A stretch of 64,000 bases of DNA, taken from assembly GCF_001971705.1 (NCBI RefSeq), contig NZ_CP019327.1:2294001-2358000 (forward strand), in the 5' to 3' direction. This stretch comes from Natronorubrum daqingense. Its GTDB lineage: Archaea > Halobacteriota > Halobacteria > Halobacteriales > Natrialbaceae. Shown here piece after piece: positions 2,382 to 33,542 of the stretch. The notes beneath the pieces were generated by a model, which searched no databases, was not told the origin of the DNA, and saw nothing but the letters and a program-made list of their open reading frames with translations. The translations under genes and the position numbers were made by a program. Position 1 is the stretch's first letter. Each line of letters starts with the position of its first letter.

Positions 2382-3754
2382 CGGAACAGCACGCTCCGAA
2401 TCTCACGCCACGGGTTCGGAATGGTCGATTGCGAGGAGTCGTCGTCCGCAGTTTCGTTCACGGTTTCTTCGATCGGTTCGAGAACCCGCCATCCGTCGTC
2501 CGTTTCCTCGATATCACCCGACTCGAGGCCATCGCCGAACTGCTCGAGCGTCATGAACGTGACGTCGTCCGTCGCGTTCATGTACTCGATGAGCGATCGC
2601 AACATGTCGAGTCGGTCCTCGCTCGTGAAGTACTGGTAGTGAAGCATTTGGACGTACGGTTCGTTGTCTTCGACGGCCTCGTCGAACGACTCTGTCAGCG
2701 TCTCGAGGTCGTGGAAGGGCACCTCGTCGGAGTCGTTATCCGCGTTCGACCAGTCCTCGAACGCCTGCGTCTCCGGCACGTGCAAGATACCGTCCTCCTC
2801 GAACGGCGCTTCCTCCTCGTAGTACACCGACGTGAACCACTCGCCTCCGGAGACGATCGGATACCCCTCCTCGACGAGGACGTCCACCGTGTTGTCGTCG
2901 TACGTGTTCATCGGCGGAATGAACGTCTGAGAGGGTCTATCGACGCAGTCGTGCATGATCTCCTCGCCAGCGACGAGCCACTCGTATTGAGTCGTGATCG
3001 AGACGTTGCCGAACTCGCTTCCGTCGTAAAAATCGGTCTGTTCTTCGTGTGTATACCCGTGAATCGCCATCTCGAATTGGTCGGGATACTCGGACTCGAG
3101 TGAGCGAAGGTACGAGCAGGTTTCGTCATCGTCGGTAATCGCGTTCTCACCGGCTACCTTTGGGATGATCCCGAGCGTAACGGGAACGTCCGCGTCGATG
3201 AACACCTGGTCGACGGCTCGCATCTCTTCTTGATTGTACCACGGCTGAATGTCGTCGTTCCTGAATATGACGATCGTCTCGTGTGTTTCCCACGATCGAT
3301 CGACCGATTGGTGGTCGCTCGATTCCGAATCGAGTATCGTGCTGACCGAGACGGTGCCAGCGATTCCCGCCAGCAGGATAGCGATGACCAGCGCTGAGAC
3401 CATCAGTTGCTGTCCGCGCTCCGTGTTCGGTCGATATCGATCCGGGATCCAAGACAGTTCACCACCGGGCGTCGGCGTCGGCAGATCAGGAAACTGAATC
3501 CGTCTGTTCGTTTCCGGTGGTTCCTCCGTTTCTCCCTCGAGTTCGAACCGACGCCCACACTCGAGACACCGGCACACGGAATTAACCGCGCGCAGGTCTC
3601 CACGCGGTTCAGCGTGACCACACTTCGGACACCCTCCCTCCTCGAAAGCCGTTACCGGTCCAACGTGTCCACAGTCGTGTTCGACAATTTGTTCTGTCGT
3701 TACCCTGAGAGAGCCACACCGTCGGCATCCCTCATTCGGACCACCAGTCATCAC
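2378..3754 (-). CDS. Polysaccharide deacetylase-fold protein with N-terminal zinc ribbons and one membrane anchor
   Basis: This is the first gene of the operon, 458 residues. Residues 10-66 hold a series of Cys/His pairs (C10/C13, C28/H30, C42/C45, C61/C63/C66) that look like two zinc ribbons on the cytoplasmic side. A membrane helix runs from about 117 to 140. The rest is a NodB-like (carbohydrate esterase 4 / DUF2334-type) domain outside the cell, with FRNDD at 164-168 and HGYTH at 232-236 as candidate metal ligands. This family removes N-acetyl groups from amino-sugar polymers. Cytoplasmic zinc ribbons on such an enzyme are unusual and could serve assembly or regulation. Deacetylase activity is inferred from the fold motifs. 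Coupled by ATGA to the glycosyltransferase. Confidence 0.82.
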   Translation of the reverse strand: MMTGGPNEGCRRCGSLRVTTEQIVEHDCGHVGPVTAFEEGGCPKCGHAEPRGDLRAVNSVCRCLECGRRFELEGETEEPPETNRRIQFPDLPTPTPGGELSWIPDRYRPNTERGQQLMVSALVIAILLAGIAGTVSVSTILDSESSDHQSVDRSWETHETIVIFRNDDIQPWYNQEEMRAVDQVFIDADVPVTLGIIPKVAGENAITDDDETCSYLRSLESEYPDQFEMAIHGYTHEEQTDFYDGSEFGNVSITTQYEWLVAGEEIMHDCVDRPSQTFIPPMNTYDDNTVDVLVEEGYPIVSGGEWFTSVYYEEEAPFEEDGILHVPETQAFEDWSNADNDSDEVPFHDLETLTESFDEAVEDNEPYVQMLHYQYFTSEDRLDMLRSLIEYMNATDDVTFMTLEQFGDGLESGDIEETDDGWRVLEPIEETVNETADDDSSQSTIPNPWREIRSVLFR

Positions 3755-4145
3755 AATGTCAATACCTGGAATCGGGTTTTGTAATCATCTGCATACAAGC
3801 TGGTAATTCTGCTTTTTTCTCCCATATTTACAGATGGTGCAAAAATACAGTATACGAGCCTAGAATCGTTCGATCTGATTTCACGGCTTTTCGATATAAC
3901 CACACTCATATAATATATAAAACATTTTTCGCCATAACATTCTCGTCGATAGATCGTTTATTTACATATCTTAGATAGATCATCTAGCCATGTTTCGTTT
4001 GGACTATTACCAGACAGCCAACAGAGATGAAGGCGGATGGCTTCGGGAAGAATACACGAAACCGTCCGGGAGCCACCTCGTGTTGGAGCGGGTGAAGCGA
4101 TTCGCCGCGCTTTTGGTCTGTGAGGTCGGATACTCTCTCACGCGA
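3755..4145. other. AT-rich intergenic region with divergent promoters
   Basis: About 390 bases separate the divergently read polysaccharide operon and the methylthiotransferase. Positions 3785-3990 are markedly AT-rich compared with neighbours and contain several runs such as ATATAATATATAAAACAT. An in-frame ATG at 3990 would extend the methylthiotransferase by 52 residues, but that extension has no family similarity, and a TTTTGG box at 4111-4116 lies about 30 bases before the internal ATG at 4146. No other gene is seen here. Confidence 0.5.
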
Positions 4146-32815: not shown

Positions 32816-33003
32816 CGGTCGCTCGAGTGTGCTATTAGTTCCGGACGTGAAACGGTTGCACCTGCACGCTCCACCGACGATCAAGTTCCAAGCCTGCGTT
32901 CGCCGTTGAAACCCGAGCGTCCTAACACAGCGAGACTCGAGGAGTACGCCGACTCGAGTGGGTATGTGAGGAGCGAAGAGTGATGAGAATTGGCGAGAGT
33001 TGG
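32816..33003. other. Spacer between small membrane gene and repeat array
   Basis: No gene was seen. The right end has a short direct repeat, TTGGCGAGAG followed by TTGGCGAGGG (32990-33009), which leads into the first partial tRNA copy. Confidence 0.4.
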
Positions 33004-33250
33004 CGAGGGTTGGGATTTGAACTACGCCGAGACGGTCGCCCTCGCTTCGCTCGGGCGCTGCGACTCGTTTACTTCAAATCCAAATCCGATTGCTGTTGCT
33101 CGCGAATTGCTCACAACAGCAATTCGAGGGTTGGGATTTGAACAACGTGAAGACGGTCCAGAACGCTCGTTTCACCCGCGTTCGGGCTGCGACTTCTCTC
33201 GTTCAAATCCCGCTTGGCGCAGTTGCCACTCACGGGTGTTCGTGGCAACA
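33004..33250. repeat. Two partial copies of the tRNA-Leu 3' end, each inside a palindrome
   Basis: CGAGGGTTGGGATTTGAAC occurs at 33004-33022, 33125-33143 and, as the tRNA itself, 33253-33271. In each of the two extra copies, the T-loop sequence pairs with a distal inverted copy: GGATTTGAA at 33013-33021 with TTCAAATCC at 33073-33081, and GGGATTTGAAC at 33133-33143 with GTTCAAATCCC at 33201-33211. Both interiors share GACGGTC and CTGCGACT. Between the units are separate hairpins, ATTGCTGTTG/CAACAGCAAT (33089-33098 and 33114-33123) and GTTGCCAC/GTGGCAAC (33222-33229 and 33242-33249). The exact repeat covers the acceptor 3' strand, T stem and T loop of the tRNA. Confidence 0.85.
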
Positions 33251-33334
33251 TGCGAGGGTTGGGATTTGAACCCAAGGACCCCTACGGGAGCGGGTCTTAA
33301 GCCCACCGCCGTTGGCCTGCTTGGCTACCCTCGC
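33251..33334 (-). tRNA. tRNA-Leu (anticodon TAA)
   Basis: The minus strand folds as a class II tRNA. Acceptor stem GCGAGGG pairs with CCCTCGC, followed by discriminator A at 33251. D stem GCC/GGC, anticodon stem GTGGG/CCCGC with loop CTTAAGA giving anticodon TAA, a variable arm TCCC-GTA-GGGG, and T arm TTGGG-TTCAAAT-CCCAA. It decodes UUA, a rare codon in GC-rich haloarchaea. CCA is not encoded. Its 3' end is copied twice next to it. Confidence 0.95.
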
Positions 33335-33542
33335 GCAGAATGCACTCGTTCGTTGGCCATACGGTGGGATGTGCGTTTCGATATCGGTGTTCGCATTGTC
33401 CTTCCGCGAGCGACCTTCGCGAGCGGGCCGACAATCCCCCAAGTGGGGGTGAGGAGGCTTTTGGCGGAGGTTTTGCCAGTGACGTGAACGGAGTGAACGG
33501 ACCGCAACAAAAGGTCCTCCTCGAGTATCGACTCGAGAAACG

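Follow-up and report, generated by a model that had tools for sequence, protein, structure and literature searches.

Hairpin units matched to the resident tRNA behind tRNA genes of haloarchaea: possible mobile palindromic modules

The window, a stretch of 64,000 nucleotides from the genome of Natronorubrum daqingense, contains a tRNA-Leu(TAA) gene on the minus strand followed by two tandem units, each built around a long hairpin. Read in the tRNA sense, the order is the tRNA, a hairpin denoted HP1, a left arm, an interior hairpin and a right-arm copy of the tRNA 3' end, after which all four parts occur again (33123–33004). The features are listed below with their window positions.

33251–33334, minus strand: tRNA-Leu(TAA) gene that hosts the array and whose segment G53–N73 is the one copied (ARAGORN; Rfam RF00005, 50.1 bits).
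33222–33249, minus strand: HP1 of unit 1, directly 3' of the tRNA, GTTGCCAC-GA-AC-ACCC-GT-GA-GTGGCAAC (from folds; similar to hairpins at the same place in other tRNA tails).
33201–33211, minus strand: left arm of unit 1, the tRNA T-loop and T-stem copied inverted (GGGATTTGAAC; from the sequence and the arm analysis).
33144–33200, minus strand: interior hairpin of unit 1, core GAAGTCGCAG...GACCGTCTTC (from the alignment and pair counts; model match of 77.8 bits at genome positions 2327133–2327211).
33125–33143, minus strand: right arm of unit 1, a copy of the tRNA-Leu 3' end (exact 19-nt repeat; family copy profile).
33089–33123, minus strand: HP1 of unit 2, ATTGCTGTTG...CAACAGCAAT (from folds).
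33073–33087, minus strand: left arm of unit 2, an inverted copy reaching into the acceptor strand (GGATTTGGATTTGAA; inverted repeats I3–I5).
33023–33072, minus strand: interior hairpin of unit 2, core GAGTCGCAG...GACCGTCTC (model match of 91.6 bits at genome positions 2327012–2327082).
33004–33022, minus strand: right arm of unit 2, a copy of the tRNA-Leu 3' end that closes the array (exact 19-nt repeat).

Much of this arrangement had been described in an earlier note on the same DNA. The three exact copies of CGAGGGTTGGGATTTGAAC that it placed at 33004, 33125 and 33253, with spacings of 121 and 128, are present, and the mirrored T-loop sequence that it reported at both extra copies was located in the arms at 33073–33087 and 33201–33211. 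The shared stem interiors, GACGGTC and CTGCGACT, were also found on the plus strand. Each unit was said to be followed by a separate hairpin; both hairpins exist (33089–33123 and 33222–33249), but in the tRNA sense, which is that of the minus strand, each precedes its unit. The extra copies had been called truncated, and they are real copies of the tRNA 3' end, but they cover G53–N73 and are not random truncations. No integrase gene was apparent among the nearby ORFs, as the note had stated. The array folds were more stable than almost all dinucleotide shuffles, with z-scores of −3.4 to −5.5 as RNA and −3.1 to −4.2 as DNA of the tRNA strand. A module nearly identical to the interior of unit 2 forms unit 1 at the tRNA-Leu(TAA) gene of a congener. 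Upstream of the window's tRNA-Leu(TAA) lies a further palindrome-rich intergenic stretch (33395–33540) containing GGCGGAGGTTTTGCC and GTGAACGGAGTGAACGGACC, for which blastn gave no other match within its own genome.

The array belongs to a large family. When the 253-base array region was used as a blastn query, 51 of 61 genomes gave matches, up to 19 per genome; those examined were located 3' of various tRNA genes, each with the 3' end of the tRNA concerned. A covariance model applied to 393 genomes of the phylum matched 77, all Halobacteriales, and no match was obtained in the roughly 310 genomes of the phylum outside the Halobacteriales. The search of haloarchaeal genomes that the earlier note proposed found units behind many tRNA genes, in 77 of at least 81 Halobacteriales genomes sampled, 4 being listed without a covariance-model match. 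Among the 30 new loci obtained with the model, 29 adjoin a tRNA and carry its own 3' end. In the window's genome, where tRNA genes were located with RF00005 and their flanks were then read, 28 tRNA genes are followed, within about 0.9 kb, by a copy with 4 or fewer mismatches, mostly as 1–3 units, and the tail of Gly-GCC, one of these 28, is only a remnant. By our own estimate, such a 19-nt copy, with up to 4 mismatches allowed, would lie within 1 kb by chance with a probability of about 1e-3 per tRNA.

A stricter rule (3 or fewer mismatches in 19, within 600 bp of the tRNA) gave units at 27/42 tRNA genes of the window's genome, 20/42 and 12/38 of two Natronorubrum congeners, 13/30 of Haloarcula rara and 14/29 of Haloferax larsenii, where the denominators are the tRNA genes read and not every tRNA of each genome. 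Three non-halophilic Halobacteriota together gave 1/29 by this rule, and the single case resembles a tandem tRNA duplication. Copies upstream of tRNA genes amounted to 0–1 per set. In the surveyed haloarchaea, including a Haloferax species, between about one third and two thirds of the tRNA genes are followed by units. The collection comprises 232 distinct units from 36 tRNA kinds. A plasmid search matched two Natrialbaceae megaplasmids, with one match adjoining a tRNA-Gly. On an 828-kb megaplasmid of Natronorubrum bangense (NZ_CP031306.1, 821604–824787), a tRNA-Gly(TCC) gene is accompanied by a tail unit under which no feature is annotated. We regard it as practically certain that the family exists, that it is bound to tRNA genes and matched to them, and that within the phylum it is confined to haloarchaea.

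A unit is about 100–130 bp long and consists, from the tRNA outward, of the locus-specific HP1, a long hairpin whose outer stem is matched to the tRNA, and a G53–N73 copy of the same tRNA. The outer stem is the T-loop and T-stem of the resident tRNA in inverted form, and it encloses a conserved core, AGTCGCAG...GACCGTCT and variants. Further interior types occupy the same frame, namely CCGAGGTTC..GGTTCTCGG, TCAGGGA..GACCGTGG and GCGCGCAGCG..GAGCACGTC. For 230 copies, seeded on the T-loop and T-stem only, the mismatch to the resident tRNA was 0.04 at G53, did not exceed 0.05 up to the end of the T-stem, ranged from 0.05 to 0.15 in the acceptor strand as far as N73, and rose to 0.47 one base beyond. 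This profile indicates sharp copy borders at the T-loop edge (G53) and the mature 3' end (N73). In 124 of 135 units the left arm fitted the resident tRNA more closely than it fitted other tRNAs on average; among 199 aligned left arms, 97 had no mismatch within the matched stretch, and 48 were shorter than the copy. In most units the acceptor-copy segment has no pairing partner. A reading of the left arm as a tRNA-primer site was rejected, because the arm spans the T-loop and T-stem and not the CCA end.

The pairing of the hairpin is supported by compensatory changes. In an alignment of 34 type-A hairpins, 24 pairs were supported, 15 of which showed two-sided changes. Such changes filled 96 cells against a shuffled mean of 32.6, a count reached in none of 500 shuffles, and the signal collapsed in slid controls. 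Judged by eye, the internal loops fit neither the kink-turn nor the bulge-helix-bulge consensus, and both readings were rejected.

Comparison of related genomes shows that units are present in some and absent from others, and that the order and combination of their parts differ. Clean filled and empty sites with homologous flanks were found at orthologous tRNA genes for Arg(TCG) (102 bp; flank identity 0.66) and Glu(TTC) (111 bp; flank identity 0.74), where random places gave a median identity of 0.48–0.49. Such sites can also come from deletion between direct repeats. In one genome (G003) the order of the two Leu(TAA) interiors is the reverse of that in the window, with the first HP1 still in place, and at Val(GAC) HP1 is retained while the interior differs between the genomes compared. 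One inverted interior was seen at Ser-TGA (L021). In three genomes, 23 of 61 interiors had their best match at another tRNA, whereas this was true of none of the 41 HP1 hairpins having a match of at least 85%. In the window's genome, the interiors at tRNA-Ile and tRNA-Phe are 98% identical. Val-GAC and His share 95% identical cores despite different T-loops, which speaks against plain site-specific exchange and in favor of templating of the arms at the new site. Such sharing of cores between tRNA genes is stronger evidence of movement than presence and absence. Divergence was evaluated in 29 similar same-tRNA unit pairs, a few of them neighbors within one array: it was 0.017 for the T-loop/T-stem copy, 0.151 for the acceptor copy, 0.269 for the downstream flank and 0.088 for the body, the last being biased low because the pairs were chosen for similar bodies. 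The hairpin is thus maintained while the acceptor copy decays.

We tentatively explain the units as non-autonomous mobile palindromic DNA modules that establish themselves at tRNA T-arms, with arms derived from the resident tRNA; this account seems to us the best, though the odds fall slightly short of even. With a little more reserve, we suggest that the module takes its ends from the host tRNA, with the T-arm copied both direct and inverted round a mobile core, so that one core type could colonize dozens of tRNA genes and leave each intact. Among the three origins that the earlier note had offered, its very small tRNA-targeting mobile element is the best supported, given the clean presence and absence and the occurrence of core modules at different tRNA genes, although no recombinase or transposase was linked to the units, an integrase having been looked for among the ORFs near those of the window. 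The gain of a unit would involve a DNA event at the T-arm in which the tRNA 3' end (G53–N73) is duplicated, and by this duplication the tRNA would remain functional. The arms would be re-made from the resident tRNA during the gain. A tyrosine recombinase that cuts at the T-loop, acting on the folded T-arm hairpin, is a candidate activity, and template switching at the T-arm repeats is an alternative one. After the gain, the hairpin would be kept and the acceptor copy would decay, and the faster divergence of the latter is what is expected of a by-product of the gain. The units could still bring the host a secondary benefit. Several points count against a mobile module: no recombinase or transposase was linked to the units, filled and empty sites may reflect deletion between the repeats, cores are common to tRNAs with different T-loops, HP1 stays with its locus, and an excess of GU in the core points to RNA.

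That excess belongs to the main rival, which we consider possible but less probable. Transcribed together with the tRNA, the units would function as RNA: their HP1 and long hairpin would insulate, terminate or guide pre-tRNA 3' processing, or would be released as small RNAs; the left arm would pair with the T-arm copy of its own unit and so prevent invasion of the tRNA. The strong covariation in the hairpin pairs favors such a trailer, as does the position of the units, which are always 3' of the tRNA and in one orientation. Wobble counts, taken from anchored stems, model-aligned pairs and ortholog pairs, gave a mixed answer. The GU:AC ratio was 19:3 in the unit cores (aligned to a model, with cells that are not independent) and 24:11 in helices of ortholog pairs, an excess of GU that agrees with RNA, but it was 8:6 in HP1, which shows no bias, against 25:1 in the tRNA acceptor stems of the same loci. 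Stable tandem-GA caps lie on the tRNA-sense strand, a point in favor of the trailer that nevertheless suits RNA and single-stranded DNA equally. The patchy presence among congeners and the unpaired acceptor copy of most units are further points against it. Rfam 15 gave nothing credible over the window stretch except the tRNA. The proposal in the earlier note that the units are structured RNAs mimicking the tRNA 3' half holds as far as pairing is concerned, since this was confirmed by covariation, but the fold is unlike a tRNA 3' half because the T-loop copy is held within a long stem.

Scars left by an integrase and decoy sites are both less likely than an RNA trailer. In the former, a tyrosine integrase acting at the T-loop would have left attachment-site scars or mini integrative elements, with the tRNA 3'-end copies as attL and attR, and the copied block from the T-loop to the mature 3' end is indeed the expected residue of a crossover in the T-loop (PMC8371274). 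We consider this improbable. The regular anatomy and conserved core recur at 36 tRNA kinds and were seen on no integrase element, and known att scars lack inverted arm copies. A search of phage records gave no match to the units and a viral-contig scan gave one match, so that these searches point away from a provirus with the core in its attP region. The one locus of the 30 that does not adjoin a tRNA is explained by an element of about 8 kb between a tRNA-Met and its tail unit (L202/L371, G413:C1:703000-722900), which encodes a putative integrase of 345 residues (L371 positions 2919–3956, minus strand), XerC/D-like as read from its sequence. This element used tRNA-Met itself, and the tail unit was displaced and left behind as an independent feature. 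The repeated integration by an archaeal integrase that the earlier note had envisaged is therefore not supported, as the units have their own conserved anatomy, match no phage record and are independent of this element.

The same locus bears on the very unlikely idea that the host retains spare tRNA 3' ends as decoys drawing integrases off the real tRNA genes. The copies do span the segment that usually serves as the archaeal attB (PMC8371274), but the single integrative element examined used the tRNA even though a unit copy lay behind it; the acceptor part, which a decoy requires, decays faster than the hairpin, and a decoy needs neither the inverted arm nor the core hairpin. A local accidental duplication at one tRNA, favored only by the short repeat length, is refuted by the same architecture at 36 tRNA kinds in 232 distinct units with covariation: the units are not, as the earlier note had allowed they might be, confined to this place and devoid of conserved pairing, for the family is widespread and its pairing is conserved.

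The units were compared with several known systems. Archaeal tyrosine integrases mobilize tRNA-targeting elements flanked by attL/attR repeats (PMC8371274). As at att sites, each unit has a direct repeat of the tRNA 3' end from near the T-loop, here the G53–N73 copy, and the tRNA is intact; however, the units are tandem, about 100 bp long and have neither integrase nor cargo between the repeats, and they possess an inverted T-arm copy and a hairpin core common to dozens of tRNA genes. In Haloquadratum walsbyi, small mobile repeats (SMR), MITEs and PATEs were reported together with repeat-mediated deletions (PMC3119063). These too are short, non-coding repeats of haloarchaea that contain inverted repeats or palindromes and no internal transposase, but by description they are dispersed and have ends of their own, whereas the tRNA-bound units use the ends of the resident tRNA and lie only behind tRNA genes. 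The identical terminal inverted repeats that a MITE carries at every insertion were not found, since the arms vary with the resident tRNA; the clean presence and absence in related genomes that also marks a MITE was found at Arg(TCG) and Glu(TTC), whether by gain or by loss. Integron attC sites and their cassettes are imperfect hairpins in tandem order that undergo module shuffling, and the analogy concerns only how they work. Unlike them, the archaeal units have arms that follow the tRNA and no cassette gene was seen; an IntI-type integrase was absent among the ORFs around the window units. Bacterial REP/RAYT palindromes (e.g. PMC3733652) are, like the units, intergenic and multi-copy. The units differ in being tied to tRNA genes and are not dispersed in the window's genome. 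We know of no RAYT gene linked to them.

No description of tRNA-tail units was found in the open-access full text searched, and an account in a subscription journal is possible. They seem to be a new kind of feature, judging from this limited search and from their failure to fit the systems above. They raise the questions of a module that re-makes its ends from its target, of tRNA 3' ends as common landing sites, and of structured trailers on archaeal pre-tRNAs. There is also a practical risk, as the unit copies are easily mistaken for att sites of proviruses or genomic islands.

The core module is not confined to tRNA tails, as free-standing cores occur elsewhere. Halorubrum contains a dispersed intergenic repeat composed of several hairpins, with the core AGTCGCAG...GACCGTCT and an HP1-like hairpin before it, which gave 70 and 52 matches in two genomes, away from tRNA genes. 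It differs from the units in having neither T-arm arms nor a tRNA copy. Examples lie at the centers of loci L335, L338, L339, L346 and L349. Cores without T-arms were also found at single loci of Natrinema, Halorussus and Halomarina. Over eight loci with free-standing cores, Rfam gave no match except a tRNA. A second kind of tail was observed at a tRNA-Arg gene of Haloferax larsenii (L432), at the tRNA-Ala(CGC) gene of the window's genome (L051) and at another tRNA-Arg locus (L035). In this kind, a hairpin, GCAAACGC-TTC-GCGTTTGC, precedes a copy of the T-stem 3' strand and acceptor strand of the tRNA, and there is no T-arm hairpin.
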